A stretch of 23,609 nucleotides of DNA from Desulfobacteraceae bacterium. Its GTDB lineage: Bacteria; Desulfobacterota; Desulfobulbia; Desulfobulbales; Desulfobulbaceae. Both the position numbers and the translations under genes were made by a program. Below the pieces are notes generated by a model. It was not told the DNA's origin, searched no databases, and saw only the letters and a program-made list of their open reading frames with translations. The stretch's first letter is position 1, and every line of letters begins with the position of its first letter. Positions 3,936 to 21,032 of the stretch are shown in pieces. Where the stretch lies: assembly GCA_022837185.1 (NCBI GenBank), contig JALHJD010000013.1, positions 1 to 23,609 of the forward strand, read 5' to 3'.

Positions 3936-3951
3936 TTCCCTGTCCCTGTCT

Positions 3952-4879: not shown

Positions 4880-6313
4880 TCAGGCCCGGAAGTCGGAAGA
4901 AAGAATGCCGTAGCGGCGCATGAGGCGCTGGAAAGCCTGCCGCTCCAGCCCGCACTGCCTGGCCGCGGCGGTGACGTTGCCCTGGTGGGCGGCGAGCAAT
5001 TGCCGCAGGTAGGCGACGGAGAATTGCCGCACCACTTCGGCCTTGGCCTCATTATAGGGGAGGCCGCCCAGTTTCCTGATTCGATCCTCCGGGCACCATC
5101 CCTCATCCTTTTCCTCCGGGCCGCGGAAGTCGTCCACCTCCAGGGTGCTGCCGCGGGCGAGCAGGACCGCCCGTTTGATGAGGTGCTGCAGTTCCCGGAC
5201 GTTGCCCGGCCAGTTCCGCTGGCAGAGATAATGCAGGGCTTCAGGGGCTATCCGCAGATCGGGCCGGTCATGCTGGCGTTTGTACCGTTCAAGGAAATGG
5301 CGGGCCAGCAATGGGATGTCCTCCCGCATTTCCCGCAGAGGCGGCATTTCCACGGTAACGACGTTGAGGCGGTAGAACAGGTCGGCCCGGAATTCCCCGG
5401 CCTGGATCCTGGCCTCGAGATCCTGGTTGGTGGAGGCCACCACCCGGACATCAACCTTGATGGTGGTGTTCTGCCCCAGGGGCTGGATTTCCTTTTCCTG
5501 GAGGACGCGCAGAAGCTTGGTCTGCACCGGGACGGGGATATCGGCGATTTCGTCGAGCAGGATGGTCGACCGGTCGGCGGCCAGGAACAGGCCCTTCTTG
5601 TCATGGGTTGCGCCGGTAAACGCGCCCCTGCTGTAGCCGAACAGCTCGCTTTCCAGGATATGTTCCGGCAGGGCCGGGCAGTTGACGGTGATCATCCGGT
5701 GCTGTTTTCTGCTGCTCAGTTCATGGAGGGCGCGGGCGGCCAGTTCCTTGCCGGTGCCGGACTCACCCCGGATGAGCACGGTGGCATCGGTGTCCGCCAC
5801 CCTGGCGATCAGATCCTGGACCCTGCGCAGTGCGGGAGAATGGCCGACAAAACCCGGTGCCAGGTCAAGGTCTTTCAGTTTTTCCTGAAGCTGGCGGTTA
5901 TGCTTGAGCAGGCGGGTCCGCTCCAGGCAGTGACGGATCACCCTGACGATGTGATCCTTGTCAAAGGGCTTTTCCAGAAAGTCATAGGCGCCGTCCTTCA
6001 ACGCCTGGACGGCCATCTCAATGGTGCCGTAGCCGGTCATGACGATCACCGAAATGGTGCTGTCCATCTCGACGATTTTTTTCAGCAGGTGGAGACCGTC
6101 CAGGTCGGGCATTTTTATATCGGTCACCACCACGTCGGGCCGGCTGTTCTCCAGCATTGTGAGCGCCTCGAGCCCCGTGGAGGCTGACACGACGCCGCAC
6201 TCGCACTGCCGGGCGACGACCCGCTCGAGCATTTGCAGCATGTCCGGTTCGTCATCAACGATCATCACAAGCTGTTCGGACCGGGAGACAGCCCCGGGGC
6301 CTGCTTTCTTCAT
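4880..6313 (-). CDS. NtrC-family sigma-54 response regulator (REC-AAA+-Fis HTH)
   Basis: A 477-residue bacterial enhancer-binding protein. The receiver domain (about 14-130) has the acidic pair DDE at 20-22, phospho-acceptor D65 in VVVTDIKMPD, MTGYG at 92-96 and K115. The AAA+ domain (about 153-385) has Walker A GESGTGKE at 183-190, the sigma-54 contact loop GAFTGA at 230-235, Walker B ILLDEI at 251-256 and the arginine-bearing FRADLFYRL. A Fis-type helix-turn-helix lies at about 440-470 (GNVTAAARQCGLERQAFQRL). All key residues are present. The start ATG 6313 overlaps the phosphatase stop as ATGA, so translation is coupled. It is the last gene of the central cluster and the only sigma-54 activator here, so it is the natural candidate to act at the sigma-54 promoter near 18500. 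Confidence 0.95.
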   Translation of the reverse strand: MKKAGPGAVSRSEQLVMIVDDEPDMLQMLERVVARQCECGVVSASTGLEALTMLENSRPDVVVTDIKMPDLDGLHLLKKIVEMDSTISVIVMTGYGTIEMAVQALKDGAYDFLEKPFDKDHIVRVIRHCLERTRLLKHNRQLQEKLKDLDLAPGFVGHSPALRRVQDLIARVADTDATVLIRGESGTGKELAARALHELSSRKQHRMITVNCPALPEHILESELFGYSRGAFTGATHDKKGLFLAADRSTILLDEIADIPVPVQTKLLRVLQEKEIQPLGQNTTIKVDVRVVASTNQDLEARIQAGEFRADLFYRLNVVTVEMPPLREMREDIPLLARHFLERYKRQHDRPDLRIAPEALHYLCQRNWPGNVRELQHLIKRAVLLARGSTLEVDDFRGPEEKDEGWCPEDRIRKLGGLPYNEAKAEVVRQFSVAYLRQLLAAHQGNVTAAARQCGLERQAFQRLMRRYGILSSDFRA

Positions 6314-7374
6314 TGCCTGCTGCTCAGTGACCCGAGATAGTGAAAATATGTCTGGATGAACCTGCCCGAAACGACATCGGCAAGACAGGGGCGAAACAGC
6401 GATTCGTCCGGGAGTGTGCCCGACAGGGCAAGAAAAACCGAACGGGAGAGAGAGGCAAGTATGGCCTCGGTTTCGGGGAGGCCGCCGACCTTGCCGTTTA
6501 ATCCGTACAGCCTGCAGCTCAGGGGGCGATACCGGGCCAGCAGGCACTTCCCGTCCCGGAGCAGGGGGCAGGGCTGATCCTCCTCCAGATATCGACGCTC
6601 CAGCTCCTCGATGGATGCAACCTGCCGGGACTGCGCCAGCCGGCGGATGATGCGGGAGTTGTGCACCGCACGTTCGATGATTTCCTCACGATCCCTGCTG
6701 GTCAGCGTCCTGTTCATCCTGTTGTTCAGATAAATGGCCTCGATCAACTGCAGTTCAAAATAGCGCCGGCAGCAGGCTGCCCCGTCGATGCCGCAGCGGG
6801 GGGGCGCCTGCCCGCCCGTGGATGCGGCGACCCGGTCCTCCACCTCCGCCACCAGCCCTTCATATTCGGTGAAAAACGCTCCGAGATCGACGATATTCCG
6901 ATGTTCAAGCTGGGGTTCCCTGATCGTCAGCCTTCCCGACTGTTTGCCATATTTCTTTAAAAACTTCCATTGGGAATAATTGGTCGGGGAGGCCTTGGAA
7001 TGCTGCAGCACCTTGTCCGCCATTTTCATGCCCAGGCCTCTGCGGAGCAGGTAGGCGGTGACGAACGTGCCGGTCCGCCCTATCCCGTGCCGGCAATGGA
7101 CCAGGACCTTTTTCCCGAGATAGATGGCCTCGTCAAGCCAGTGCAGCCCCTTTTCCATTTCCGCCATGTCCGGGGCGCTCTCGTCGGGTATGGGCAGAAA
7201 ATAGACCTCGAATCCCGATTCCTTCTCTATTTCATGCAGATCACAGAATTCCCCGCACAGGTTGACAATGGCATCGATCCCCTGCTCCCGGATATGGTCG
7301 AGTTCGGCATAGGACATGGGCGCATGACCGACCGCCAGGTTATCCGTTATCCAGGTAAGTTGATAGTTGCCCAT
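6310..7374 (-). CDS. Dual-specificity phosphatase fused to YkgJ-like cysteine-cluster domain
   Basis: A 354-residue two-domain protein. Residues 1-150 are a cysteine-dependent phosphatase: the P-loop VHCRHGIGRTG has nucleophile C94 and R100, and D64 in PIPDES is the likely general acid. Residues 190-345 resemble YkgJ-type zinc/iron-chelating proteins, with C194 and CC201-202 in CGIDGAACCRRYF, then C269, C277 and C287 in CPLLRDGKCLLARYRPLSCRLYG. There is no signal peptide, so it is cytoplasmic. It starts six bases after the stop of the dikinase-like gene and overlaps the sigma-54 regulator by ATGA. The tight spacing suggests the three act together, perhaps with a metal- or redox-sensitive phosphatase. 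Each domain is clear. The fusion and its role are uncharacterised as far as I know. Confidence 0.85.
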   Translation of the reverse strand: MGNYQLTWITDNLAVGHAPMSYAELDHIREQGIDAIVNLCGEFCDLHEIEKESGFEVYFLPIPDESAPDMAEMEKGLHWLDEAIYLGKKVLVHCRHGIGRTGTFVTAYLLRRGLGMKMADKVLQHSKASPTNYSQWKFLKKYGKQSGRLTIREPQLEHRNIVDLGAFFTEYEGLVAEVEDRVAASTGGQAPPRCGIDGAACCRRYFELQLIEAIYLNNRMNRTLTSRDREEIIERAVHNSRIIRRLAQSRQVASIEELERRYLEEDQPCPLLRDGKCLLARYRPLSCRLYGLNGKVGGLPETEAILASLSRSVFLALSGTLPDESLFRPCLADVVSGRFIQTYFHYLGSLSSRQ

Positions 7375-7380: not shown

Positions 7381-9906
7381 TCAATCGGAAAAATCGTATC
7401 TGCCGTTCATGAAGGCCTCAACCATTCTGCCGACCATGCCCTCGTCCCTAATCACCATGTCCATCAGCGTCGTTGCCGCCAGCAGGCGGCCCACCACGTC
7501 GAGTTTCTGCTGCACATCTTTTTGATTATACCGCATCAGCTGGGCATCAAGCAAATCACCGCTCCTCTGCACGGAAAAGCCAAGGCGCTGCAGAATTTCG
7601 GTAACGAACTGCAGCCGCAGGGTGATGCCGGCCGGGTCCCCTCCGCCTCCGGCAAAACGCAGCTTGATATAATTGTTTTCGGCAACTGCCCCGCACAGGG
7701 AGTCGAGGATGACGAAATGGTACCCGAACCGCAGGTTCAGGTTGAGATAATCTGCTGAAACAACCGCGTAACTGGCGTAGGCCGGATCGCTGCTGCTGAC
7801 GATCCCTCCGGCCATGGTGGCTTCGCTGAAACCTTTCCAGTCGAAATGATCATGATGCCGCCAGCGGATCCCGGGATGGGTCAACCCCCGCAGAAGGGCC
7901 TGGAGGGGAAAAGAGCGCGGGGCAGAGTCAGGGGGTTCGGCGCCGTTAGCCCTCGGCCCGGCGATATCGTCGTCCAGGTCAAGGAGATAGATCTGCAGGG
8001 GTATGGGAGCCTTCAGCAGGGTGGTAGCGGACCTTTTCGCGAACATCGAGGAGGTGTGGGAAAACATGGCCTGCACCCCCTTTTCATGGACAAAACGGAT
8101 TATGTCATGCAAGGAGCGGCAATTTTCCGGGGCAAACGAGGAGTCAGCCGGATCAATGAGCTGCAGGGGGAAAATAAAGGGGCTCGCCTGACTGAATGCC
8201 CGGTGCACCGGCGTGTCCCGCTGTTCGATTCTCCGGGTCGGATACCTCTTTACGATGCGTTCCGCGCAGCCGTCGAAGACCATGCCCAGGTCGGCGCAGA
8301 CAGTGACCACCCTGCCGGCGGGCAGGACCGCGGAAGCGTTGCCGGTCTTGACCAGCACCGGGACGCCCGCCTCGCGCGCGACCGAGGCAAAATGGCCGGC
8401 GGCGCTGCCCTGCTCCGCCACCACGGCGCAGACCCTGTCAAGCGCCACGACATAGGAGGGCGGAATCACGGAAGTGACCAGCACCGAACCGTCGGCCACC
8501 GCGGCCAACTGTCCCTCATGCTCGATGATATGCACCGGGCCGCAGGCCGCGCCCCGGGACGCCGTTTCCCCACCGGTGAGCAGGACCGGAATTCCGCTGA
8601 GATCGTCCTGCTCTTCCTCAATTGTTTCCTGGATGCGCATGGGTCTGGTCTGGAGCAGAAAAACATCACCCCAGCGGTCCAGGCTCCATTCAATCTCCTG
8701 GGGTGCCTGGAAAAATCCTTCAATCCGCCGCGCCCACGCGGCAAGCAGCACTGCCTGCCCTCTGCTCAGGTCCGCAGGAAAATGCTTCCTTCCTCCCGCC
8801 GGCTCGACCGCCTCGGCACCAGCGCCATCGCAAGCGGAACCGCCCGCAGCCGCGGACCGTTCGACGATGACTTCATCCTTCTCCGGGTTGACGACCACCG
8901 TTGCCGGGCTGCATTGCCCGCTGACCAGTTTGTCGCCGAGACCTTCGATATAATGGATGATCACCTTTTCTTCGGCGCCGCCGGCCGAACCCCTTGTCGT
9001 CACCACGCCGCTCAGCCCGGCGTCGATCATCCGCAGCACCAGAACCGCCATTGGGGTCTCTTCATCGAGAAACCCGGACTTGATGCGATAATAGATCGCC
9101 CTGGGTGAATATTTGGAGGCCAGGACTTTTTTGTAGGCAGCCAGGACCTCCCCCGCCCCCACTTCCAGAACCGATTCATACTGTCCGGCAAAGGAAATCT
9201 CCGAATCCTCACCGACAGCGCTGCTGCGGACGGCGAAAAATTCGGCGCCCGTGCGCTGACCCAGGTCGGCGACACTGTTCTGCATATCCCTGGCCAGCCG
9301 ATACGGGAGCTCCGCTCCGTTGATCAGCCCCATCAGTTGTCCCGCCGCCTGGGACAATGACTCTTCGGAATCGATGTCTACCCGGCTGAGCAGATCGTTG
9401 ATGAGGGGGCGGAGATTGTTTTCCTCCATGAAATTATGGAAGGCGGAGGTGGAAACAATGAACCCCTCGGGGACCGGCAGGTCGAGCTCATGTTTGAGGA
9501 TGCTGAGGTGCAGTCCTTTTCCCCCTGTCTGCCCATCGTCGGCATACGAGGTGTCCAGGGGGAGGATGAACGCTGAGATGACTGGTGCAGTGAGCGGCGT
9601 CAGGGCGATGCGCCCGTAAAATTCGATTTTCCTGGCATACGCCCGCAAAGTCAGGTAGGAGGCCGGCGCCATCCGGTTCAGGCAGCCGATCATGGCCAAC
9701 ACGCCGGTGGCCAGCTCACCGTGCCGCCGCCGGATCAGGTTGAGATCGACCTTATGATTCCGGTAGTACAGCTCCTCCAGCTCGGCGAGTCGCCTGTGGC
9801 TCAACCGGTCGTGGTGCAGCAGCTCCTTGAAGGCGTTGTATTTCGCCCGGACGACCGCCTTGGGGGAAATGAACTGCAGGACGATACGGTTGAGGATACC
9901 GAGCAT
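7381..9906 (-). CDS. PEP-synthase-like dikinase with non-canonical C-terminal domain
   Basis: An 841-residue protein related to PEP synthase/pyruvate phosphate dikinase. After a helical N-terminal part (1-110), the ATP-grasp PPDK_N region spans about 120-425: GGKGLHLSIL at 128-137, FAVRSSAVGEDSEISFAGQY at 224-243 and QEIEWSLD with LLQTRPM at 403-423. The phosphohistidine swivel domain is at about 440-545, with the predicted catalytic H505 in AGHFASVAREAGVP. The C-terminal 290 residues do not look like the PEP/pyruvate TIM barrel and lack its Cys-containing active-site segment. The true PEP synthase reaction is therefore unlikely, and another acceptor may be phosphorylated. The ribosome site at ATG 9906 is weak. 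The gene is followed six bases later by the phosphatase, which could oppose it. Confidence 0.82.
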   Translation of the reverse strand: MLGILNRIVLQFISPKAVVRAKYNAFKELLHHDRLSHRRLAELEELYYRNHKVDLNLIRRRHGELATGVLAMIGCLNRMAPASYLTLRAYARKIEFYGRIALTPLTAPVISAFILPLDTSYADDGQTGGKGLHLSILKHELDLPVPEGFIVSTSAFHNFMEENNLRPLINDLLSRVDIDSEESLSQAAGQLMGLINGAELPYRLARDMQNSVADLGQRTGAEFFAVRSSAVGEDSEISFAGQYESVLEVGAGEVLAAYKKVLASKYSPRAIYYRIKSGFLDEETPMAVLVLRMIDAGLSGVVTTRGSAGGAEEKVIIHYIEGLGDKLVSGQCSPATVVVNPEKDEVIVERSAAAGGSACDGAGAEAVEPAGGRKHFPADLSRGQAVLLAAWARRIEGFFQAPQEIEWSLDRWGDVFLLQTRPMRIQETIEEEQDDLSGIPVLLTGGETASRGAACGPVHIIEHEGQLAAVADGSVLVTSVIPPSYVVALDRVCAVVAEQGSAAGHFASVAREAGVPVLVKTGNASAVLPAGRVVTVCADLGMVFDGCAERIVKRYPTRRIEQRDTPVHRAFSQASPFIFPLQLIDPADSSFAPENCRSLHDIIRFVHEKGVQAMFSHTSSMFAKRSATTLLKAPIPLQIYLLDLDDDIAGPRANGAEPPDSAPRSFPLQALLRGLTHPGIRWRHHDHFDWKGFSEATMAGGIVSSSDPAYASYAVVSADYLNLNLRFGYHFVILDSLCGAVAENNYIKLRFAGGGGDPAGITLRLQFVTEILQRLGFSVQRSGDLLDAQLMRYNQKDVQQKLDVVGRLLAATTLMDMVIRDEGMVGRMVEAFMNGRYDFSD

Positions 9907-9941
9907 GGAGAATCACGGTCTTGAGGTTCAGGCGTTCAGGC

Positions 9942-10031
9942 GAAGGCCGAAGGCTTCAGGGTGTACAGGTACTGATGCATATTATGGCAACAGAACCGGT
10001 TTTTCCCTTTCAGCCTTCAGCCTTCAGCCTT
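9942..10031. repeat. Intergenic CAGCCTT triplet repeat forming an imperfect inverted repeat
   Basis: CAGCCTT occurs three times in tandem at 10011-10031. GAAGGCCGAAGGC at 9942-9954 is complementary to GCCTTCAGCCTTC at 10013-10025 with one mismatch, which could fold into a 13-base-pair stem with a loop of about 58 bases. It lies in the 138-base gap between the second TauE half and the dikinase gene. No T-run follows on either strand, so it does not look like a simple terminator. Confidence 0.7.
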
Positions 10032-10044
10032 GTTCCCTGTGCAA

Positions 10045-10434
10045 TTAATACAGACCCAACAATTTCAGTCCGAGCAGGATCAGGCCGACACAGGCAACCC
10101 TTTTCACAACGATCGGACTGACCCGTTTGGCGATCTGCGGACCGATATAGCCTCCCAGCAGAGCTGCGGGGAACATGGCGAGAAAAAACAGCAGATCAAA
10201 GTTGCCGAACTGGTAATGGCGAAGCGTCCCCATGGCGGTGTTGAAAAAGATCGCCAGGAGCGAACTCCCCACCACGATATACATGGGCAGGCGCATGGCA
10301 ACGGTCATCAAGGGTACCATGAAGGGCCCTCCGCCGAAACCGAACATGGAGGACATGACCGCAATCAGAAAACCGCCGATGCAGCCGACAATCATATTCG
10401 CATGAAATTCCTGACCCCAGAATTCAACTTTCAT
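10045..10434 (-). CDS. TauE/SafE-type permease, C-terminal half as a separate protein
   Basis: A 129-residue membrane protein with about four hydrophobic segments. It carries one TauE/SafE half-repeat: an early MSSMFGFGGGPFMVPLM glycine-rich loop at about 27-43, then VVGSSLLAIFFNTAMGTLRH and a final ALLGGYIGPQIAKRV. Normal family members are about 250-300 residues with two such halves, so this is half a transporter. The other half is the preceding gene, 12 bases upstream. AAGGAGGA overlaps that gene's stop codon and drives this start, so the two are made together and probably form a heterodimer. Family members move anions such as sulfite, sulfonates or sulfoacetate. The substrate here is unknown. 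Confidence 0.85.
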   Translation of the reverse strand: MKVEFWGQEFHANMIVGCIGGFLIAVMSSMFGFGGGPFMVPLMTVAMRLPMYIVVGSSLLAIFFNTAMGTLRHYQFGNFDLLFFLAMFPAALLGGYIGPQIAKRVSPIVVKRVACVGLILLGLKLLGLY

Positions 10435-10446: not shown

Positions 10447-11652
10447 TTATTTCTTGGCCTTGGCGGCTTCTTCAGCCCGTTTCTTGAATTCCTTCAGAAT
10501 GGCCTGCTCTTTCTTGTTCTTGGCCAGATAACCGGCCGTCGTCTGCCAGAACATCAATCCGGCCAGCACCAGCAGAATCCAGCCGAAGGCGAACTTGAAC
10601 TGGGCGAGGGTGATCATTTCAGTGAGCTTGGGGCCGATGAAACCACCGAGCAGCATGGCGCAGCCGATCCCGATGCCGAGTTTCCAGTTGATGAACTTGA
10701 TCTTCGAATAGTTGTAGATGCCGCTGCCCTGAGAAAAAAGCACCGTCGGCATGACCGTGCCGGCCACCACCGTATGGGGCAGCATCGGAAAGATGGAAAC
10801 AAGCAGCGGATTGAGAATGAAACCGCCCCCGGCGCCCATGAGTACGCCGAAGATGGCGACGACCAGAGTGAGCAGGAAGGGCCACAGCAGGTTCATGCTG
10901 GTGCCGGCGTTTTTCAGATACATGGTCGGGAAGCTGATCTTGTTTTCAAACTCGGCCGGCTGGCTGCGGAGATTCCTGTCCACCACCGCGGCGATCCTGT
11001 ACTTGCCCGGCGCCAGACCGGAACGGATATTGATGTCCGCTGAAAAGGTGCCGTCCGGTGCTACGTTGACGTCCGCGCCAAGCACTTTGTCGTAGCTCCT
11101 GAAGCGGGACTTGATGAGCTGCATGGAGCGCTTTTTGTTCTCGTCGGCATCCAGCGCGGGCAGCAGGGTACCGCGGCTGCCGATGACGCTCGCCATGAGG
11201 GTCGCCTGATAGTGGTCAACCTTGATACCCGCCGGCACATTGTAGGCCACGTCGGCGCCGGTCTCCTTCAGCGCCTTGGAAAAACTCCATTTGCCGCCTT
11301 CGGCCTTGATCGCATCGAGCTTGGGCTGCAGCTCGCTGGGCATGAAAATTTTGTAGTACGCCGGCATATCGTGGGTAATGTAGAAGATATACGGAATCTT
11401 GCCGGTCTCCTCGTCCCTCTTATTGTCGAACTGGTTGGCACGCACGGTCTTGTCCACGGCCCACACCTCCAGAAAAACCGGCTGGCCGGGCGGAGCCTTG
11501 CCCGTTACCTTGATAACCCCGCCGTTCTTTAATTCAGTTCTGTCAATCTGCAGGGTCGGGGCCCCCTGATCCTGTGCAAAGGCTGCCGAAACCGGCAACA
11601 GGCAGGCCAGTACAACAAATACCATTTTGAGCAACTTCAACTTTTCCTTCAT
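10447..11652 (-). CDS. Exported-domain TauE/SafE permease, N-terminal half
   Basis: A 401-residue protein. Residues 1-26 are a signal peptide (KEKLKLLK, hydrophobic core, cut after AAFA). About 27-260 form a periplasmic region with beta-rich segments (LQIDRTELKNGGVIKVTGKA; later FSADINIRSGLAPGKYRIAA), suggesting immunoglobulin-like folds. About 265-380 hold four membrane helices with the TauE/SafE loop GAGGGFILNPLLVSIF and GTVMPTVLFSQGSG. A lysine-rich cytoplasmic tail ends the chain. ATG 11652 has GAGGAGG six bases ahead and starts the signal peptide, so it is preferred to an ATG 45 bases upstream. The second transporter half follows after 12 bases. The periplasmic domain may bind substrate or a partner. 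It has no match I can name. Confidence 0.85.
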   Translation of the reverse strand: MKEKLKLLKMVFVVLACLLPVSAAFAQDQGAPTLQIDRTELKNGGVIKVTGKAPPGQPVFLEVWAVDKTVRANQFDNKRDEETGKIPYIFYITHDMPAYYKIFMPSELQPKLDAIKAEGGKWSFSKALKETGADVAYNVPAGIKVDHYQATLMASVIGSRGTLLPALDADENKKRSMQLIKSRFRSYDKVLGADVNVAPDGTFSADINIRSGLAPGKYRIAAVVDRNLRSQPAEFENKISFPTMYLKNAGTSMNLLWPFLLTLVVAIFGVLMGAGGGFILNPLLVSIFPMLPHTVVAGTVMPTVLFSQGSGIYNYSKIKFINWKLGIGIGCAMLLGGFIGPKLTEMITLAQFKFAFGWILLVLAGLMFWQTTAGYLAKNKKEQAILKEFKKRAEEAAKAKK

Positions 11653-11707
11653 TTTTTCCTCCTCATTGTGAGACGGACCATTGGTTACACTGATCACGCA
11701 TTGCAGT

Positions 11708-11759: not shown

Positions 11760-13427
11760 TTAATGAAATTCAATGATTCTGGCATCGCCGACATACTCCT
11801 TGCTGGCAAAACCGGTCATTGCCGTCATTTTTTTGGTCAAGTCGGCCATTGCCCGCATATTGCGCAGGATGATGTCCATTTCCCGCCGCTGCTCCGCATT
11901 CTCCATCTCGTCCCGCAGGAGCTGGGCCGTGCCCAGGGCCGCAAACAGCGGGGAATTGAGTTCGTGGGCGACCGTACCGGCCGTTTCCAGGACCCCGGCC
12001 AGCTTTTCCCGGGCGATCTTTTCCTGTTCCAGCGATTTCTGCGAGGTGACGTCGCGCACCGTCTCGACAGCGTACTCAACCCGCCCCGTACTGTCGAATA
12101 CGGGGAATATGCTCCGTTCCAGCCATTGCGCGTGATCGTTCACCGGGACACGGTCCGTGCGGGTCCGCGTCTCGCCTGTTTCCAGGACCTTTTGGACCGG
12201 ACACTGCCCCTCTTCGCTTTTCCAGGGGATGACAAGGTCATACGGCCGGCCGAGCAGGGCATTTTCGGAGAGGTTTTCCTGTTCCAGGAAACTTCTGTTG
12301 ACCATGACCACGTGCTTTCGACCATCCACGACGATGATCCTGTCCTGCAGGGCATCCATTATGGCCTGCAGAAACCGTTCGTTTTCCTCGATCTGGTTGA
12401 ACAGCAGGTTGATTTTCCTGAAGGTCAGGGCGTTGAGGATGGCGCTGCCGCTCTCTTCGGCCACCGCCGCGGCAAAGGTGACCTCGCTGGCGGTGAAGCA
12501 GTGATGTTCAGTGGTCAGCAGCCGCAGGACCCCGATGATTTCCTCCCCCTTTTTTATGGGGACGGCCAGGATGCTTTTGATGCCCTCGCTGCGGATGGCG
12601 TCGTGATACTGCACCCGCGGATCGTTGGGCGCATCGTACACCGCCACCGGCTCCCCCTTCAGGGCCTGGAAAATGGAATCCTCCCTCCTGATGCTGCCCC
12701 GCTTGAGGTACTCGGGCGACAGGCCCGATGCGGCTGCCAGCTCCAACTGGTTGGTTTCCGGCTGGAGGAGACGGATTGTGCAGGCCTTCATTCCCATGAT
12801 TTTCGGGAGCTTGTCGACAATGGTCTGCAGAATGGCATTGAGATCGAGGGTCGAGTTGACCAGCCGCGAAATTTCGTGCACTTCCTTGAGAAAATCGACC
12901 TGGTTTTCCATTTCCTTGAATACCCGGCCGTTGGAAATGGCCACCCCGATCTGTTCGGCAAGGGTCATGGAAAACGATATTTCCATGGGGGTAAACGTCC
13001 GGGTCTTCCTGGTCAGCAGCCGCATGATGCCGATGATGTGCTCCTGAAAGATGATGGGCAGGGAGAGGACGCTTTTTATCCCCTCCCTGGCCGCCTCGGC
13101 GCTGTGCTGATACTGCGGATCGGCGTCCACGCCTGTTTTCGCCACCGGGCGGCCCTTCATGAGCATGTCCATGGTCTCCCGGGTGTCAATTCCCCCCCTG
13201 GACAGGTACTCATCGGAAAGGCCATGGGCCGCCCCCAGGACAAAGGTGTTGGTGCCTGCATCCAGCAGCCGGATGGTGGCGGCGTCCACCTCCAGAAGCT
13301 CAGGCAGGCGCCGCACCACCAGGTCCATGACCTGCTGCGGGTCAAGCACCATGCTGATGAGCCGGGCGACCTCCTGGAAGATTTCCAGGTATCCTCTTTC
13401 CCTGTTTTTCCCGTTCTCTGCTGTCAT
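11760..13427 (-). CDS. GAF-GAF-PAS signalling protein with histidine-kinase dimerisation helix but no ATPase domain
   Basis: A 555-residue soluble sensor-like protein. Two GAF domains lie at about 20-165 and 190-340, each with the same internal pattern (ATIRLLDAGTN / CTIRLLQPETN; GIKSVLSLPI / GIKSILAVPI), so they look like a duplication. A PAS domain follows at about 345-460 (DALQDRIIVVDGRKHVVMVN), with a PAC-like ending VRDVTSQKSLEQEK. An H-box GTVAHELNSPLFAALGTAQL has H488. The chain stops 67 residues later with SKEYVGDARIIEFH, and there is no N-box or glycine-rich ATP lid. The 107 bases after the stop do not encode one. The same short ending occurs in related proteins, so this is probably a real architecture. 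It could be a phosphotransfer partner of the nearby kinase. It sits 16 bases after the ferredoxin-subunit gene, with a weak ribosome site. Confidence 0.85.
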   Translation of the reverse strand: MTAENGKNRERGYLEIFQEVARLISMVLDPQQVMDLVVRRLPELLEVDAATIRLLDAGTNTFVLGAAHGLSDEYLSRGGIDTRETMDMLMKGRPVAKTGVDADPQYQHSAEAAREGIKSVLSLPIIFQEHIIGIMRLLTRKTRTFTPMEISFSMTLAEQIGVAISNGRVFKEMENQVDFLKEVHEISRLVNSTLDLNAILQTIVDKLPKIMGMKACTIRLLQPETNQLELAAASGLSPEYLKRGSIRREDSIFQALKGEPVAVYDAPNDPRVQYHDAIRSEGIKSILAVPIKKGEEIIGVLRLLTTEHHCFTASEVTFAAAVAEESGSAILNALTFRKINLLFNQIEENERFLQAIMDALQDRIIVVDGRKHVVMVNRSFLEQENLSENALLGRPYDLVIPWKSEEGQCPVQKVLETGETRTRTDRVPVNDHAQWLERSIFPVFDSTGRVEYAVETVRDVTSQKSLEQEKIAREKLAGVLETAGTVAHELNSPLFAALGTAQLLRDEMENAEQRREMDIILRNMRAMADLTKKMTAMTGFASKEYVGDARIIEFH

Positions 13428-13443: not shown

Positions 13444-13902
13444 CTACAGGTCAGCTTCCTTCAGGGTAACGAACTTCAGGGCGTGGGTCGTGCACTTGGT
13501 GACGCAGGCCGGTTTGAGCCCCTGATCGACCCGGTCCATGCAGTAATCGCATTTGACCGCCTTGTTGGTTTCCGGATTGTGCTGGGGGATCTGCCACGGA
13601 CAGGCGCCCTGGCAGGCCATGCAGCCGATGCACTTGTCAAAATCCACATAGACGATGCCGTCCGCCCTCTTGGTCATGGCCCCGGTCGGACAGACCGGCA
13701 CACAGAACGGATCATCGCAGTGGTAGCAGGCCTTGAAGGAAAATTCCGTCTTGGGCACGCCCTTTATGGATTTGAGCGGCTTGTGGTCAATCTCGCAGAG
13801 AATGGGGCCGACCGGCAGCCTCTTGTTGGTCTTGCAATGGACCTCGCAGCCATGACAGCCGATGCACCTTCTGGTATTGAGATGGATCATGTATTTGTTC
13901 AT
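13444..13902 (-). CDS. Four-cluster 4Fe-4S ferredoxin subunit of molybdopterin oxidoreductase (DmsB/PhsB-like)
   Basis: A 152-residue electron-transfer subunit with four cysteine groups typical of the DmsB/PhsB/PsrB fold: CIGCHGCEVHC at 13-23, CYHCDDPFCVPVCPTGA at 59-75, CIGCMACQGACPW at 91-103, and CDYCMD plus CVTKC at 118-137. These should bind four [4Fe-4S] clusters. There is no signal or membrane anchor. It is a little shorter than most family members. ATG 13902 follows GGAGGG, and the stop of the catalytic subunit overlaps it as ATGA, so the two are coupled and form an AB complex. The usual NrfD/PsrC-type membrane subunit is not encoded next to it. It should pass electrons between the molybdenum subunit and an unknown partner. 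Confidence 0.93.
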   Translation of the reverse strand: MNKYMIHLNTRRCIGCHGCEVHCKTNKRLPVGPILCEIDHKPLKSIKGVPKTEFSFKACYHCDDPFCVPVCPTGAMTKRADGIVYVDFDKCIGCMACQGACPWQIPQHNPETNKAVKCDYCMDRVDQGLKPACVTKCTTHALKFVTLKEADL

Positions 13903-16013
13903 AACTCTACCCTCCTTTTCGGGTTCCTGACACTCCGGCGCACAACGACGAAGGCCTCGCAAAGGTTGACTGCCCCTCCGGCCTGGTCCCAGTCGTCAAG
14001 CTTGCCGACCATCAGCTTCTGGTCGCTCAGGCCCGCATGATAGGCCCGGGTCTGCAGGGGAATCTGGCGGCCGAAGCCATGGACCGTGTACACTGATTCC
14101 GGGTGGATGAAATCGGTGACGTTGGCATGGATTGTGCCGGAATAACTGCTGTCCTCGGAGATGACGTCCACCAGGTCGCCGTTGCTGATGCCCAGCTTGC
14201 TGGCCGCCCTGGTGTTGATCCACAGCGTGTTTTCCGGCATCAGCTCGGAGAGCAGCGGGTTGTTGATGGTATGCCCGTGGGTATGGACGGCGGCGCGGCC
14301 GTAGACCAAACGGAACATGCCCTTGGGGGGCTTGATCGGCGACTCGTACGGCTTCAGGGAAGGAAGCCCGGCTTCCGTCAGCTTGGTGCTGATGATTTCA
14401 ATCTTCCCGGTCGGGGTCTTGAAATATCCCTCCAGTTTGTCCCGGTCAAACATGACCGGCTTGTCGGTCAGGGTGACAAACCCTTTTGCCTCGAAGTCCT
14501 TCATGGTATAGCCGGTGGGCTCCAGCTGCCAGGCCCACAGGTCTTCGATGGTGTTGTAGGGGAAGTAGTCCCCGATATCCAGCCGGTCGGCGAGCTGCTT
14601 GAAAATCTCCCAGCCGGGCTTGGTGTCGAACCTGGGCTCCACCGCCTTGCGGCGCACCGCCAGCCTCGGCTTCAGCCCCTTCTGCTGGCAGATGGGGTTG
14701 TCGCGTTCAAGATAGGTCGATTCCGGCAGAATGACGTCCGCATACCAGCCGAATTCGCTGTAATGGGTGTCGATGGAGACCAGCAGGTCGCATTTATCGA
14801 ACGCCCTCTTCTGAAACTGGGGATCGGGCATGGCGTTGAAGGGATCATGGCGCATGGCGATCCAGGCCTTGATGGGATAGGGGTCTTCGCTCAGCATGGT
14901 GTTGAAGAAGAGATGGGCAAGACCCGGTCCCTTGTCAAAGTGCTTGTACTTCCACCCGACGCCGTCGCCCCTTTTGATGTCCGGCTTGGGGCAGTCGAGA
15001 TTGCGGATTCCCTTGACCCCGCAGTCTCCCGCGCCCTTGGGGATGACGAGGCCGCCCTCGGTCTCGATGTTGCCCATCAGGACGTTGAGAATATGCAGGG
15101 CCCGGCTGGCATAAAAGGAATCCTTGTAGCGCGACAGGTTCCAGCCCGGATGAAAGATGACCTTGGGACGGTCTTCGGCCACTTCCTCGATGAAACCCTT
15201 GATGGCGTTTTCCTTGACCCCGCATTCCTTTGCCGCCCATTCGGGCGTATACTGCTCGATGAAGGAGCACAGCTCATCAAAACCGCTGACATAGCGCTGG
15301 ATGAAGTCCGCGTCGAACAGCTCTTTTCTGATGACCTCGTGAATCATGGCCAGGGCCAGGGCATAATCCGTGCCGGGCCGGACCTGGAAAAACCGGGTGG
15401 CCTTGAGGCCGGTCATCGACTGGCGCACGTCCACGTAGGTGAGCCTGCCGCCCCGGTCCAGCATGTCCATGGTCTGGAGGTTTTCTCCGATGCGCAGCGA
15501 GGCGAACATGTTGCGGCCGAAGAGCACCAGGTGGTTGGCGTTCTTGATATCGTAGACGAAATCCTTTCTGCCCACGCCGTTGATGGAAAGGCTGGCGTGA
15601 TGCGTATTGCGGCCGCAGGTGCAGTCATGGTTCGTGTAATTGGGGGAGCCGTAGGCATGGATGAAGGTCTTGTACATATTCTGCCAGGGTCCGCCCCGGG
15701 AGGAGAGAACCACCGATTCCGGCCCGTATTCCTGTTTGATTTTTTTCAGCTTGTCGGCGATATAATCGTAGGCGGTCGTCCAGCTGACCTTCCGCCAGCG
15801 CCCCGCTCCCCGCCCCCCTTCACGGATCAGGGGCTGCTGGGGCCGCTCCGCATCATCGATCAGGGCCACCCCGGCGGAACCTTTCGCGCACAGGGCGCAG
15901 TCCAGCAGGTGCGGATTGCCCTCGATCCATGTCACTCGGTTGTCTTCAGTCTCCACCCGTATGGGGCAGCGCACGGTGCACATGCCGCAAATGGAGTACA
16001 CTGATTTTTTCAT
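13899..16013 (-). CDS. Molybdopterin oxidoreductase catalytic subunit (PhsA/PsrA-like, no signal peptide)
   Basis: A 704-residue DMSO-reductase-superfamily enzyme binding bis-MGD and one [4Fe-4S] cluster. Cluster cysteines are C9, C12, C16 and C42, with the electron-relay lysine K44 in CAKG. The Mo-ligand region is GSPNYTNHDCTCGRNTHH (122-139). C133, or less likely C131, should bind the metal. Cofactor-binding segments include GWNLSRYKDSF and, near the end, RLVYGRAAVHTHGHTINNPL and GISNGDLVDV. No Tat signal precedes C9, so it should stay in the cytoplasm, unlike exported PhsA or PsrA. It follows a kinase/regulator pair and overlaps the ferredoxin gene. Thiosulfate, polysulfide, tetrathionate or another oxyanion are possible substrates, as is a hydratase-like reaction. 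Sequence alone does not decide. Confidence 0.92.
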   Translation of the reverse strand: MKKSVYSICGMCTVRCPIRVETEDNRVTWIEGNPHLLDCALCAKGSAGVALIDDAERPQQPLIREGGRGAGRWRKVSWTTAYDYIADKLKKIKQEYGPESVVLSSRGGPWQNMYKTFIHAYGSPNYTNHDCTCGRNTHHASLSINGVGRKDFVYDIKNANHLVLFGRNMFASLRIGENLQTMDMLDRGGRLTYVDVRQSMTGLKATRFFQVRPGTDYALALAMIHEVIRKELFDADFIQRYVSGFDELCSFIEQYTPEWAAKECGVKENAIKGFIEEVAEDRPKVIFHPGWNLSRYKDSFYASRALHILNVLMGNIETEGGLVIPKGAGDCGVKGIRNLDCPKPDIKRGDGVGWKYKHFDKGPGLAHLFFNTMLSEDPYPIKAWIAMRHDPFNAMPDPQFQKRAFDKCDLLVSIDTHYSEFGWYADVILPESTYLERDNPICQQKGLKPRLAVRRKAVEPRFDTKPGWEIFKQLADRLDIGDYFPYNTIEDLWAWQLEPTGYTMKDFEAKGFVTLTDKPVMFDRDKLEGYFKTPTGKIEIISTKLTEAGLPSLKPYESPIKPPKGMFRLVYGRAAVHTHGHTINNPLLSELMPENTLWINTRAASKLGISNGDLVDVISEDSSYSGTIHANVTDFIHPESVYTVHGFGRQIPLQTRAYHAGLSDQKLMVGKLDDWDQAGGAVNLCEAFVVVRRSVRNPKRRVEL

Positions 16014-16065: not shown

Positions 16066-16434
16066 TCAGGCTTTGTCGCCCCCGAGAACCTTGCTGACCT
16101 TTTCCTCCAGTTCTTCCTTGTCGATGGGCTTGACGCAGTATTCATTGGCCCCGAGGCTGATGGCCTCACGGGCCGTTTCCACCGTCGGGTAGCCGGTGAG
16201 CATGATGGCCCGCATCTCCGGCACGATCTTTTTCATCTGCGCCAGGACCTCTATGCCGCTCATTTTCTTGAGTTTTATGTCCAGAATGGCGAGATCGACC
16301 GGATGTGCCCTGACATAGTCGACCGCCTCCTCTTCCTCGGTGAAGGTGTGGACGTTGTGTCCCTGTTTGCTCAGGATTTTCCTGATCAGTATCACCGCGT
16401 CATACACGTCATCCAGTGCGATAATCTCTGCCAT
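16066..16434 (-). CDS. Single-domain response regulator (CheY-like receiver)
   Basis: A 122-residue receiver domain with no output domain. The acidic pair D8-D9 (ALDD), phospho-acceptor D52 in LAILDIKLKKMSG, T80 in MLTGYP and K102 in CVKPID are all present, so it should be phosphorylated. The ATG is three bases after the stop of the membrane histidine kinase, so the kinase is its obvious donor. With no DNA-binding part it must act by contact or by passing phosphate on, for example to the ATPase-less GAF protein and then the sigma-54 regulator. That relay is inference. The molybdoenzyme gene starts 52 bases further on, with AGGGAGG ahead of it. Confidence 0.95.
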   Translation of the reverse strand: MAEIIALDDVYDAVILIRKILSKQGHNVHTFTEEEEAVDYVRAHPVDLAILDIKLKKMSGIEVLAQMKKIVPEMRAIMLTGYPTVETAREAISLGANEYCVKPIDKEELEEKVSKVLGGDKA

Positions 16435-16437: not shown

Positions 16438-18000
16438 CTATTTCTCCTCGTTGACGGCTCTGTGTTCCACGGCGGCGGGAAGCCGAACGTAAAACGCCGT
16501 TCCCTGAATTTTCCGTCCGGTTTCCGGATCCCGCACCGGGCTTTCCACGGATATGACGCCGCCGTGGTCCCGAATTATTCCATAGGTGACGGATAACCCC
16601 AGCCCCGTACCCTTGCCTATCTCCTTGGTGGTGAAAAAGGGATCAAAAATCTTCGGTTTGATATCCTCGGCAATGCCTGTGCCGGTGTCCCGAACCGTGA
16701 CGACGATTTCGCCCGATGATGGATCATGCCCGGTGATGATGCATATCTCGCCCCCGCCGGCCATGGCATGGTGGGAATTATTCAGCAGGTTGATGAAAAC
16801 CTGGCGCAGTTTCTCCGCGTCGCCGATGATCATCGGCAATCGGGGGGCAAAACGGCGAATGACTTTGATATGACTGATGTTGAGATTATGCTCGCTGACC
16901 GTCAGCACTTCCTCGATCAATTCGTTCAGGTCCACCTCACCCTTGGCGCTGTCGGTCTGGCGGGAAAACTTGAGCAGATCCGCGACGATCTTGCGGCAGG
17001 CCTTGGTCTGCCTTTCAATGATCAGCAGATTCTCATACACCTCGCTGTCTTTGCTGAAATCATCCATCATCAACTGGGTATAGCCGAGAATGACCCCCAG
17101 GGGCGTATTGATCTCATGGGCCACTCCCGCCGCCATCTGGCCGACCGAGGCCATTTTTTCCTGCCTGATCAGTTGATCGGTCATATTGCGCAGACGGGTC
17201 ATGTCCTTGGCCACCCCTTCACAACCGGCCATGAAGCCGTTTTCGTCAAAAATCGCATTGGCCGACAGCAGGATGTGGTGGACCGACCCGTCCCGGCTTT
17301 CCAGCTCCATTTCAAAGTCATTGACAAACCCGTTGTCGCTGAGGGCGGAGAGATACCGGTCGAGATCGGCGTCATTTTTAAAAAATGCAAGCAGGTTGAG
17401 CTGCCCGGACGGCCTGTCCATCCCGAGCATGTTCAGGCCGCTCTTGTTGATATCCGTAATGTTGCCGTCGATATCGCAGAAATAGACCATGTCCTTGGAG
17501 TTTTCGAAAAAATGGCGGAATTTCTTTTCGGATTTGGATAATTCGCGAGTCCGCTCCTCAACCATATCCTCCAGGTACGTATTGACTTTTTGCAGTTCAT
17601 CGGCGGTCTCCGCCAGCTTCCGATTGGCCTCGGCCAGCTTTTCCGCTTCGGACCGGACCGCCTTGTAGGCCTCCAGTCCCTTGTGGTAATAGATGATGGC
17701 CGAGGACACCGAGATCATGAACAGGGTGTTGAACCCTCCCGACCAGGGCGAGACCCGCTGCCAGAGTCCTTCTTCTCCGCCCAGCACCAGGAATATCCTG
17801 AGAATATGCCCGACGCCCCGGGAAATGGAAAAAGCGGCCATGGCAATGCAGAAATAAAAGAGAAACCCCCAGATAAAATTCCTGGGCTGCAGCCTGACCA
17901 GGAAATTGGCGTAGACCAGGGCCATGAAGGAAAGAAAGATCACCAGGCCCGAGCCGGCAAGATCAACCACATTGGTCGGTGCCAGAGGAAGGCCTTTCAT
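16438..18000 (-). CDS. Membrane histidine kinase with PAS domain
   Basis: A 520-residue sensor kinase. Three hydrophobic segments lie at about 12-35, 43-72 and 88-105, with little between them outside the membrane, so sensing may occur within the bilayer or through a partner. A coiled coil (about 110-160) leads to a PAS domain (160-275). The H-box is [18 protein letters not shown] with H295. The ATPase domain has the N-box [13 protein letters not shown] (401-413), VRDTGTGI (436-443) and GKGTGLGLS (462-470). All catalytic parts are intact. The start ATG 18000 overlaps the stop of the small membrane protein as ATGA, and the receiver gene follows after three bases. The three form a tight sensory unit at the head of the operon. 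Confidence 0.95.
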
Positions 18001-18464
18001 TTTGCCGCCTCCTCCCTGGCTTCGCGGTAAAAGCTGCGCATGCTGAAAAAGAGGGCCGCCAGGGCCGGAACCGTGAGAAAGTGATCCATTTTGGAGACAA
18101 AATAGACGATTTTCCGGGTACTCAGGGGTGGAGCCAGCCGTTCGCCCCAGGTTCCGGGGTTGATGAAATATTCACTGGGGAGATGCAGGGCGGTTGCATG
18201 GCCGATTATCGCCATCAGGTTCCAGAAGAAAAACAGCACGCAGAAGAGCCGCAGGTACCGCCACCCCCTGCTCACCGGATCCTGGGTGCGGCGGGTGTGC
18301 AGGTACAGATACGTAAGGGTCCCCATGAAGAAGACATGGGCCATCTGATGAATATAGAGCCCCTCCCCACCCCCATGGGGCTGCAGCGCCCAGGCCTGGC
18401 CGGACTGCAACAGCAGCAGCATCGTGAGCAATGGAATGGTGATGGATCGGAAAAAGCGGTGCAT
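17997..18464 (-). CDS. Small polytopic membrane protein, first gene of the sigma-54 operon
   Basis: I do not recognise this 155-residue protein. Residues 1-26 look like a signal peptide or first helix (HRFFRSITIPLLTMLLLL, possible cut after AWA). Three more hydrophobic segments follow at about 38-56, 69-92 and 116-142. Histidines are frequent near the helices (H30, H39, H43, H56, H89, H94, H128) and could bind heme or a metal. The C-terminus is basic and acidic, probably cytoplasmic. ATG 18464 has AGGGGGA six bases ahead, and the sigma-54 promoter ends about 31 bases upstream. It overlaps the kinase gene by ATGA, so a role as the sensing partner or membrane input for that kinase is plausible. 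It could alternatively be a quinone- or heme-linked redox protein. Confidence 0.82.
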   Translation of the reverse strand: MHRFFRSITIPLLTMLLLLQSGQAWALQPHGGGEGLYIHQMAHVFFMGTLTYLYLHTRRTQDPVSRGWRYLRLFCVLFFFWNLMAIIGHATALHLPSEYFINPGTWGERLAPPLSTRKIVYFVSKMDHFLTVPALAALFFSMRSFYREAREEAAK

Positions 18465-18494: not shown

Positions 18495-18510
18495 AGCATT
18501 TTCCGTACCA
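18495..18510 (-). promoter_or_regulatory. Sigma-54 (-24/-12) promoter of the central cluster
   Basis: Minus-strand TGGTACGGAAAATGCT matches the TGGCACG-N4-TTGCW consensus with two substitutions. The invariant GG and GC are present with exactly ten bases between them. Transcription would begin near 18484, giving a leader of about 20 bases before ATG 18464 that includes its AGGGGGA ribosome site. A sigma-54 activator is encoded at the far end of the same gene run. Confidence 0.85.
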
Positions 18511-18710: not shown

Positions 18711-18726
18711 GCAACATAATTGTTGC
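18711..18726. promoter_or_regulatory. Dyad GCAACA-N4-TGTTGC, copy 1 (possible activator site)
   Basis: GCAACATAATTGTTGC, centred about 209 bases upstream of the -24 element. Arms are perfect six-base inverted repeats. An identical 16-base copy lies at 18884-18899. Confidence 0.7.
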
Positions 18727-18801: not shown

Positions 18802-18817
18802 GCAACATCAGTGATGC
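18802..18817. promoter_or_regulatory. Degenerate middle copy of the GCAACA dyad
   Basis: GCAACATCAGTGATGC matches the perfect copies at 13 of 16 positions and is spaced 91 and 82 bases (centre to centre) from its neighbours. A further half site, ATTGTTGC, is at 18613-18620. Confidence 0.45.
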
Positions 18818-18883: not shown

Positions 18884-18899
18884 GCAACATAATTGTTGC
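18884..18899. promoter_or_regulatory. Dyad GCAACA-N4-TGTTGC, copy 2 (possible activator site)
   Basis: GCAACATAATTGTTGC again, including the same four-base spacer TAAT, centred about 382 bases upstream of the -24 element. Exact repetition of spacer as well as arms argues against chance. Confidence 0.7.
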
Positions 18900-19076: not shown

Positions 19077-19511
19077 TCAGCAGACGACAATGGGGTCCCC
19101 CGGCCTGGCCGCTCCACCCCGGATGACCCGGGCAAACAGTCCCTCGCGGGGCATGATGCAGTCACCGGTGGCCTTTTTGATGGCGCAGCCGCTGTTGTGG
19201 CACTCCTTGCCTATCTGGGTGATTTCAAGGATGATTTCTTCTCCCAGCCGCAACCGGTCCCCGACCTGCAGACAGGAGAGGTCGATCCCCCGGGTGATGA
19301 TGTTTTCGGCAAAGGCGCCGTTTTTGAGGGTGGGCAGCACCTTTTTCACCGTATCAATGGATTCGCCGGCGAGGAGCGACACCTGCCTGTGCCAGTTCCC
19401 TGCATGGGCGTCATTTTCGACTCCCCAATCGGTTTTCAGGACAACTTCCCGCTGCTCCCGCTTGACTATCCCTTTTTTTTCACTGATGCAGACAGCTTCC
19501 ATGTACGCCAT
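19077..19511 (-). CDS. MOSC-domain protein
   Basis: A 144-residue single MOSC domain, the family named after the molybdenum cofactor sulfurase C-terminus. Key segments are GVENDAHAGNWHRQVSLLAG near residues 30-50, GAFAENIITRGIDL, then GKECHNSGCAIKKATGDCIM and PREGLFARVIRGG near the end. The conserved cysteine stretch (ECHNSGCAI) is present. Such stand-alone MOSC proteins are found with molybdenum cofactor genes and are thought to carry sulfur or finish the cofactor. The exact reaction is not settled. ATG 19511 has GGAGGAGG a few bases ahead. It lies inside the end of moeA, overlapping by about 32 bases, so both belong to one transcript. Confidence 0.92.
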   Translation of the reverse strand: MAYMEAVCISEKKGIVKREQREVVLKTDWGVENDAHAGNWHRQVSLLAGESIDTVKKVLPTLKNGAFAENIITRGIDLSCLQVGDRLRLGEEIILEITQIGKECHNSGCAIKKATGDCIMPREGLFARVIRGGAARPGDPIVVC

Positions 19512-20823
19512 TGGTTTCCTCCTCCAGTCCTGCACTCTGCGGCTTGAACCGCAGACCTTGAACCTCAAACATTGACCCCTCAACCGGGTCTCTCCTGAAA
19601 TCATACCGATAGACATCGGCCCGCTCGCCTTTTTTCAAGGTCTGCCCGGGTTCCACGATCACGTAGCCGTCCGCCCCGGACAATGAAGTCAGCATGTGCG
19701 ACCCCTGCTTTTCCACGTGGGTGATGCAGTAGCCTCCGTTATGCAGCCAGGCGAGCTGGACGCGGATCATATTGGTCCGTGACCCCCTGTTGGTTATGGC
19801 CTCACCGGCTTCACCCGAAACGGTGGGCCAGCCGAACGGCAGGCCGTTCATCACGGTGATCACCGGCCTGACATAATGGGCGAAGCACATGAATGCCGAG
19901 ACAGGATTGCCGGGCAGCCCGAACAGGAGGGTTGTGCCTTTCCTGGCCAGGTAGAGGGGTTTCCCCGGCTTCTGTCGTATTTTCCAGAAAAGAGGTGCAA
20001 AACCGTTGGCTTCGGCCCCATTCTTGACATGATCATGCCGACCGACCGATACTCCCCCCGTGCAGACGATGATATCGGCCCGGGTCTGCCCGATCGCCTC
20101 GATCGTGGCCGGCTCTTCGTCGGCAACGCGAACGCAGCGGGTTATCCTTCCTCCTGATTCCTCGATGGCCGCCTTCAGCATGATCATGTTGGAATCCCGT
20201 ATCTGGTGTTCGGCGATTGTCTCGCCGGCGGCGACCAGTTCGGAGCCGGTGACCAGAACAGCCACCTCGCACTGCCTGTACGCCTTCACTCTCGTGATGC
20301 CCACGGCAGCCAGCAGTGCCGCCTGGGGCGCCGCTATTTTTGTTCCCCGCGGGAGGAGCAGGTCGCCCTCACGAAATTCTTCTCCCTCGCAGCGAACATG
20401 CTGCCCCTGTTTCTTCGCAGCCAGAATACGTACACGGTCACTCAGTTCCTCGGTATCCTCGACCGGGATCACCGTATCGCACCACGTCGCCAGCATCGCC
20501 CCGGTACTGATGCGGACGGCCTCCCCCTTACCGACCGTTCCATGAAATGGAGTTCCGGCCCGGCTTTCTCCCACGATATCCAGGGTGACCGGCATGTCCG
20601 GTTCCGCCCCGTGCACATCCTCCCAGCGCACACCATAGCCGTCCATGGCCGAGTTGGTAAAGCGCGGGGATGATTCAGGGGCATGAATGTCCTCGGCCAG
20701 AATTTTGCCGAAAGCCTCTTCAACGGCGTACTCCTGCTCCACAGGGGCCGGAATGCCGGTTTTGATGATGGCCAGGGCTTCCTCGATGGAGATCATTTCC
20801 CGTTTCTCTGTATCGGCTGCCAT
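19480..20823 (-). CDS. moeA: Molybdopterin molybdenumtransferase MoeA
   Basis: A 447-residue enzyme that inserts molybdate (or tungstate) into adenylated molybdopterin. Motifs in order: FTNSAMDGYGVR near residue 60, RISTGAMLATWCDTVIPVED, the central GSELVAAGETIAEHQIRDSN, CTGGVSVGRHDHVKNG, QKPGKPLYLARKG and FGLPGNPVSAFMCF, then the C-terminal beta domain. ATG 20823 follows AGGAGG and starts the normal N-terminus. A longer frame from 20964 adds a hydrophobic stretch foreign to MoeA. The usual end falls near GERADVYRYDF. About 35 further residues are unlike MoeA and appear to be read from a TTGAGGTTCA-type intergenic sequence into the MOSC gene. It sits in a row with moaA and MOSC. Confidence 0.93.
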   Translation of the reverse strand: MAADTEKREMISIEEALAIIKTGIPAPVEQEYAVEEAFGKILAEDIHAPESSPRFTNSAMDGYGVRWEDVHGAEPDMPVTLDIVGESRAGTPFHGTVGKGEAVRISTGAMLATWCDTVIPVEDTEELSDRVRILAAKKQGQHVRCEGEEFREGDLLLPRGTKIAAPQAALLAAVGITRVKAYRQCEVAVLVTGSELVAAGETIAEHQIRDSNMIMLKAAIEESGGRITRCVRVADEEPATIEAIGQTRADIIVCTGGVSVGRHDHVKNGAEANGFAPLFWKIRQKPGKPLYLARKGTTLLFGLPGNPVSAFMCFAHYVRPVITVMNGLPFGWPTVSGEAGEAITNRGSRTNMIRVQLAWLHNGGYCITHVEKQGSHMLTSLSGADGYVIVEPGQTLKKGERADVYRYDFRRDPVEGSMFEVQGLRFKPQSAGLEEETNGVHGSCLHQ

Positions 20824-21032
20824 GTATTTTTCCCTCCTGTTCATTGTCTTGTCCTCTCTACGGCCCATTGTTCGGTTTTCGTCGAGAGGCTTCATAGCTG
20901 ATGCAATTTTTCTGCCAAGAAAGATGACGGCGACAACAAGTATTGAGCCGAGGATCCTCTGCATCGTCCGCGGTTCGAAACGACCGGCTCCCGGCCCGGA
21001 AAATGGATATCGATCAGCAGATTATCCATCTG
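20824..21032 (-). other. Gap between moaA and moeA with two weak small frames
   Basis: 209 bases with no firm gene. One frame begins at an ATG three bases after the moaA stop (MDNLLIDIHFPGREPVV..., about 45 codons). Another, in frame with moeA from ATG 20964, encodes a hydrophobic stretch MQRILGSILVVAVIFLGRKI. Neither has a convincing ribosome site or known family. A frameshifted or decayed small gene is possible. Confidence 0.35.

Follow-up and report, generated by a model that had tools for sequence, protein, structure and literature searches.

A predicted sigma-54 promoter and a three-palindrome array before a signalling and redox gene run that probably helps to switch itself on in Desulfobulbales

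Is the sigma-54 promoter element that precedes a long run of signalling and redox genes in a Desulfobulbaceae genome a real switch, and does the run, whose last gene encodes a sigma-54 activator, help to operate it? The window analysed here is a stretch of 23,609 nucleotides (contig JALHJD010000013.1, positions 1 to 23,609). As the original prediction had described, it contains a 13.6-kb run of same-strand genes, which extends on the minus strand from 18464 to 4880. Loci of relatives are designated below by L and a number.

The element, TGGTACGGAAAATGCT, is located on the minus strand at 18510-18495 with a predicted transcription start at 18484. Its GG (18509-18508) and GC (18497-18496) are separated by exactly 10 bases, and it departs from the consensus TGGCACGN4TTGCW at two positions, both as originally read. 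It lies in the 612-bp intergenic region before the first gene, O1; 31 positions separate the end of the element from the ATG at 18464, and AGGGGGA between them is a plausible ribosome site. The genome encodes rpoN (PF04552, 4.4e-63). Plain consensus statistics were discarded as support for the promoter, because they are uninformative and at chance level: Four matches with at most two mismatches were found in the window compared to 4.22 expected, and 64 of 100 shuffles reach four. Matrices for promoter and palindromes were built from the promoters of 21 relatives and from 51 palindromes, with the window excluded. The 21 training loci were chosen because the element is present, which makes their own scores circular; the window, the second promoter of L055 and L104 are outside the training set. 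In the window, the element scores 19.5 bits and ranks first among 47,188 positions (runner-up 15.7), and none of 5,000 dinucleotide-shuffled versions of the 612-bp region before O1 matches its score. The explanation that the -24/-12 match arose by chance, to which the number of consensus matches would fit, is refuted to the extent that sequence allows and highly improbable in view of the first rank with a matrix made without the window, the 5,000 shuffles and the retention of the element ahead of O1 in the closest relatives. The predicted sigma-54 switch before the 13.6-kb run is very probably real. What makes the element convincing are the palindromes upstream of it and the fact that the closest relatives keep it before the same operon.

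These palindromes, GCAAC-N6-GTTGC, had been missed by the original prediction. Three copies without strand are found upstream of the element, each a putative activator site. The proximal one, GCAACATAATTGTTGC (18711..18726), lies 216 bp farther upstream than the -24 start. The middle one, GCAACATCAGTGATGC (18802..18817), has one mismatch and is 91 bp away from the proximal one, and the distal one (18884..18899), identical to the proximal palindrome, follows at 82 bp from the middle one. Their centres are about 235, 325 and 408 bp upstream of the predicted start site. With the palindrome matrix, from which the window was excluded, they are the top three of the window (24.6, 24.6 and 17.4 bits; next 8.0), and among 5,000 shuffles of the intergenic region none reaches the score of the best or even of the third palindrome. 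In the whole window, three palindromes with at most two mismatches were found compared to 0.90 expected, a number reached by 5 of 100 shuffles. Exact GCAACA-N4-TGTTGC occurs in the assembly (a draft of 3.32 Mb, 88.9% complete, 7.5% contamination) only in the two window copies (control 0). When one mismatch is allowed, 14 copies are present in the own genome and 4 to 40 in 15 other genomes (controls 0-15). GCAAC-N6-GTTGC is found nine times exactly in the own genome and 121 times with at most one mismatch versus 34 for the control. Since looser single palindromes are common, it is the array and not the single site that is telling. The palindromes of the window are repeated, conserved and situated upstream of a sigma-54 promoter, and most likely they serve as landing sites for the run's own activator.

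Among 193 genomes of the order, 132 contain a match to O1. The 80 relative loci carry mostly the names Desulfobulbaceae, Desulfocapsa, Desulfopila and Desulforhopalus; a few are named Desulfobacula, Nitrospirae or Anaerolineaceae, and there the matches are partial or weak. The closest relatives, members of the Desulfobulbales, have the -24/-12 element and nearly always the palindrome array before the same operon. According to the original prediction, loss of the GG and GC bases in close relatives that keep the operon would refute the promoter; the comparison did not bear this out. A GG-N10-GC was found 20-70 bp before O1 in 21 of the 23 relatives with the best-scoring O1, a set drawn after the fact from 69 distinct O1 upstream regions and cut at L041. 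The two exceptions are L057, where GG-N10-GC is located 312 bp upstream of the assigned start, and L066, which has none. More distant relatives often have a different GG-N10-GC or none, and few palindromes. L095, L085, L122 and similar loci carry such a different element resembling TGGCGCTYAATGTGCA at about -90 to -110 before O1; these are mostly Desulfocapsa-type loci without clear palindrome arrays. A clear array before O1 is also absent from L088 and L097, the latter on the same contig as L068. L061, whose genome (G032) belongs to the same family as that of the window, shares its contig with L103, Desulfogranum mediterraneum (Desulfobulbales).

A scan for promoter plus palindrome over 1.76 Mb of loci, overlapping records included, yielded 29 matches. 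For four of them (L078, L084, one in L055 and one in L104), the search distance contains no member of the gene set; those of L055, which appears as L080, and L084 are O1 promoters by upstream-region comparison. The geometry was measured for 23 matches including the window, and all 23 promoters have at least two palindromes of at least 9 bits. Left out were L056, L057, L078, L098, L130 and L104 at 9547, each with one palindrome of at least 13 bits (L057 with two). The nearest palindrome is located 125-137 bp from the -24 start at 16 of the 23 promoters, ten of which have three sites at 125-137, 226-249 and 312-339 bp. With sites at 216, 307 and 389 bp, the array of the window is displaced by about 80 bp farther upstream, and its inner spacings of 91 and 82 bp recur in L052 (278, 369 and 451 bp). 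The distance between array and promoter varies from 112 to 278 bp and the inner spacings are mostly kept: 78-86 bp between distal and middle site in 15 of 23 cases, and 91-113 bp between middle and proximal site, likewise in 15 of 23. Two sites or other spacings were found in L035, L037, L041, L053, L054, L058, L059, L061, L064 and L104. In L104 (Desulfopila aestuarii), a weaker element of 14.4 bits and three palindromes precede the gene for the iron-sulfur subunit (FeS, see below). Helical phasing of the middle-proximal spacings in steps of about 10 bases was not significant (P 0.12, six collapsed values). IHF-like sites between array and promoter are weak and scattered in the relatives, and none was found in the window.

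Which genes would this promoter control? All are encoded on the minus strand. O1 (17997..18464) is a 155 aa protein without a Pfam or NCBIfam match. In an alignment of 58 sequences with at least 38% identity, H30, E34, H39, Q40, H43, C75, W81, N82 and H89 are invariant, and H128 is conserved in 98%. In the AlphaFold model (pLDDT 84.9), a helix at the N-terminus is accompanied by three long ones and one short one. The residues to about 26 may represent a signal-peptide-like start; if so, most invariant histidines would be exposed on the outer face. HK1 (16438..18000), whose gene overlaps O1 by 4 bp, is a PAS histidine kinase with HisKA and HATPase domains and an N-terminal part that appears hydrophobic. 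It is followed by a stand-alone receiver domain, RR (16066..16434), the molybdopterin oxidoreductase MOP (13899..16013), which resembles PsrA/PhsA, and its 4Fe-4S partner subunit FeS (13444..13908), for which DmsB is the best NCBIfam match, below the cut-off. The next gene (11760..13427) encodes a GAF-GAF-PAS-HisKA protein, in which H488 is invariant in 15 of 15 aligned sequences. HATPase_c was not found in this GAF protein, so it does not count as a histidine kinase, and PF02518 is absent from the precomputed domains of its C-terminal relatives among the 120 matches listed of 263. Proteins of this GAF-GAF-PAS-HisKA type, which terminate behind the HisKA hairpin and have no ATPase, constitute a family. 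A TauE/SafE permease is split into two genes, as in several relatives: TauA (10447..11697) comprises an N-terminal part without family match and the first half of the permease, TauB (10045..10434) the second half. The PPDK-like protein (7381..9906) shares an ATP-binding and a phosphohistidine swivel domain with PEP synthase and rifampin phosphotransferase, and its C-terminal part has no assignment; only PF01326 and PF00391 were found at E 0.001, a PEP/pyruvate-binding domain was not detected, and the NCBIfam scores for PEP synthase and pyruvate phosphate dikinase are under the cut-off. DSP (6310..7374) combines a dual-specificity-type phosphatase domain with a C-terminal extension; in the phylum, 22 of 247 genomes encode DSP-like proteins. 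The last gene (4880..6313) encodes an NtrC-type protein, the putative activator for the 18510 promoter. In agreement with the original prediction, it is a complete sigma-54 activator with receiver, AAA+ domain with GAFTGA and Fis-type HTH.

The closest solved structure for MOP is 2vpw, which aligns with residues 3-688 at 372 bits; a Cys of MOP coincides with that of the CTAPR stretch. We take 2vpw to be Thermus PsrA; the title of the entry reads thiosulfate reductase. With the PhsA model NF012032, MOP scores 556 bits, below the cut-off of 694. In contrast to PsrABC and PhsABC, no membrane subunit is encoded in the run, and reading of the MOP sequence revealed no twin-arginine signal. As far as the available text of one report describes it, the MOLY cluster of Desulfobacterota comprises a molybdopterin enzyme pair proposed for sulfur disproportionation, which is likely extracellular and accompanied by a TorD/DmsD chaperone (PMC12998232). 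Compared to this description, the run shares a molybdopterin pair and the phylum but has no TorD/DmsD gene.

The gene order was mapped with genes homologous to those of the window. From 23 mapped rows, 17 complete loci remained: L051, L052, L053, L054 and L057 are cut by contig ends, and L082 is the genome of L059. The 17 loci have no sequence in common with one another, and all had been preselected for promoter and array. The order is O1-HK1-RR-(MOP-FeS)-GAF-TauE-PPDK-DSP-NtrC. MOP-FeS is located inside the run in 13 of the 17, and the molybdenum enzyme is an optional cargo of the run. In L059, MOP and FeS are divergent, as L082 shows. The GAF protein is present in 16 of the 17 loci; L041 lacks its gene and has a TauE-like gene before RR. 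In L035 and L068, the slot between RR and GAF is occupied by a different molybdopterin protein of 949 aa (27% identical), and in L072 RR directly adjoins GAF and no enzyme is encoded in between.

The palindrome array provides the activator with a place to act. NtrC is the only protein of the run with a match to a DNA-binding domain, and in 16 of the 17 complete loci its gene is the last one, on the same strand and with no inverted member of the set in between. The exception is L055, where an inverted block is inserted between the genes of the first promoter and the activator gene. This TauB-PPDK-DSP block, separate from the other genes, carries an element of its own (22.0 bits) beside the NtrC gene, and its palindromes at 137, 249 and 332 bp have nearly the same geometry as those of the O1 promoter of L055 (134, 247 and 327 bp). 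Upstream of the NtrC gene of L055 itself, no element of at least 13 bits with a palindrome was found. Furthermore, the activator gene is located upstream of O1 in L047, L050, L067, L068, L069, L070 and L088. Due to the order in L055 and to these seven loci, autoregulation is not an invariable feature of the system. Promoter and palindromes might also be real and used by a different sigma-54 activator, with the run's own NtrC acting elsewhere. The genome contains 26 matches to PF00158, some of them partial, so another activator could use the sites, and whether or not a locus has a clear array, the recognition-helix stretch of its activator is almost unchanged; the comparison does not discriminate between the two kinds of loci and hence yields no proof of pairing. 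In view of the 16 loci that end with NtrC, chosen as they were for promoter and array, and of L055, where NtrC adjoins the second array despite the different order, we consider use by another activator improbable.

Self-activation further presupposes that the activator is co-transcribed with the run, which is likely. The gaps within the run measure -10 to 62 bp except for one of 138 bp (9907..10044, minus strand) between TauB and PPDK. The gap originally given as 11653-11759 shrinks to 62 bp (11698-11759) when TauA is taken to start with the GTG at 11697. The 138-bp gap can form a strong RNA hairpin (-62.9 kcal/mol, z -6.2). Folds of this junction from the window and five relatives were below the lowest of eight shuffles in five of the six cases, L044 being the exception. 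The hairpins of the relatives differ in sequence and consist partly of GRCTGAA heptads. At this gap, the transcript may be processed or partly terminated, or a new one may start. Two transcription units would accommodate the hairpin folds, the greater width of this junction in L037, L042 and L060 (637 to 964 bp), and a weak sigma-70-like site with 9 of 12 bases inside TauB (minus strand, 10301-10274), although the scan that detected the latter is at chance level with five sites found versus 5.2 expected. The 18510 promoter would then serve O1 to TauB, and PPDK-DSP-NtrC would be transcribed mainly from another promoter, with weak autoregulation or none. However, neither a sigma-54 element nor a palindrome, a sigma-70-like site or a U-run was found in the 138-bp gap, and in L055 TauB, PPDK and DSP are located together behind one array. 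Such a division is in our opinion unlikely.

We prefer the reading that the run probably contributes to its own activation. The element at 18510-18495 would be the functional promoter of the operon O1-HK1-RR-MOP-FeS-GAF-TauE-PPDK-DSP-NtrC. O1 and HK1 would sense a membrane or periplasmic stimulus, and the phosphate would reach the NtrC-type activator either directly or via RR and the HisKA-only protein. The phosphorylated activator would bind the three GCAAC-N6-GTTGC palindromes, loop to the sigma-54 polymerase and open the promoter. This would raise the whole gene set including the activator and result in a positive loop. The promoter element, the array, their joint conservation, the gene order and the array copy at the split half of L055 are evident from the sequence; sensing, the phosphate path, activator binding, a single transcript and the positive sign of the loop are inferred. 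That a functional sigma-54 promoter, the run's NtrC-type activator on three palindromes and a self-raising operon are all in place together appears to us quite likely. The original prediction of an autoregulated redox module thus holds for the promoter and the activator in the same run; the redox pair is optional and autoregulation is not fixed.

Autoregulated sigma-54 response-regulator operons are already known. According to the available text of two reports, the sigma-54 regulator gene DVU0946 of Desulfovibrio vulgaris Hildenborough is situated within its own target operon DVU0943-0946, the regulator appears to autoregulate, palindromic sites are the rule there and the operon is linked to lactate use (PMC3333781, PMC4641369). 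By this description, it resembles the operon of the window in the activator within its own operon and in the palindromic sites. Autoregulation of ZraSR is mentioned in the available part of a further report (PMC12316311); as putatively here, the activator raises its own operon, but the genes differ. A literature search over mostly openly accessible papers, with partly incomplete listings, found no description of the gene set, the palindrome or the array, and the available parts of PMC12998232, PMC3739170, PMC12316311, PMC3333781, PMC5840216 and PMC4641369 do not describe the operon. The combination of gene set and widely spaced array is apparently undescribed.

Kinase, receiver, His-bearing transfer protein and receiver-effector are encoded together in the run. 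A Spo0-type relay is composed of a kinase, a single receiver, a HisKA-like protein without ATPase and a receiver-effector, and the same part list is found here. In contrast to Spo0, a sigma-54 activator would act as the effector, and GAF and PAS domains are present in the HisKA protein, whose phosphotransfer is putative. HK1, RR, the HisKA-only protein and the activator could constitute a phosphorelay encoded by one operon. HK1, with O1 and its cluster of invariant histidines as membrane co-sensor, would phosphorylate RR. From RR, the phosphate would move on to the HisKA-only GAF protein, acting as a conserved phosphotransferase under the control of its own GAF and PAS domains, and from there to the NtrC-type activator, which would drive sigma-54 transcription from the three-site array. 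The redox enzyme would be an exchangeable cargo of this signalling cassette. A complete Spo0-like relay with O1 as membrane co-sensor, a three-site array and redox cargo in a Gram-negative sulfur bacterium is a tentative proposal, possible and still doubtful. If true, it would be more than another autoregulated sigma-54 operon.

The promoter motif, the palindrome motif and the gene set define a regulon that can be tested in cultured Desulfobulbales, e.g. Desulfogranum or Desulforhopalus. Through it, a PsrA/PhsA-like molybdenum enzyme, a TauE-type permease and a phosphotransfer pair would be linked to a single sensory input, in bacteria for which the assignment of the genes of intermediate sulfur metabolism is still in progress. 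In addition, it offers a natural test case both for widely spaced enhancer sites that drive sigma-54 and for the passage of phosphate by a HisKA domain without ATPase in a relay.

Directly upstream of the operon, at 19077-22067, genes for MOSC, MoeA and MoaA (molybdenum cofactor) are located, and in L072 the operon is flanked by MOSC and MoaA genes, too. Behind the activator gene follows a separate cluster (1157-4748) that encodes an ArsR regulator, a thioredoxin, a DUF2703 protein, an ArsP-type permease and Usp. A sigma-70-like site is found at this ArsR-thioredoxin cluster at 4748-4720.
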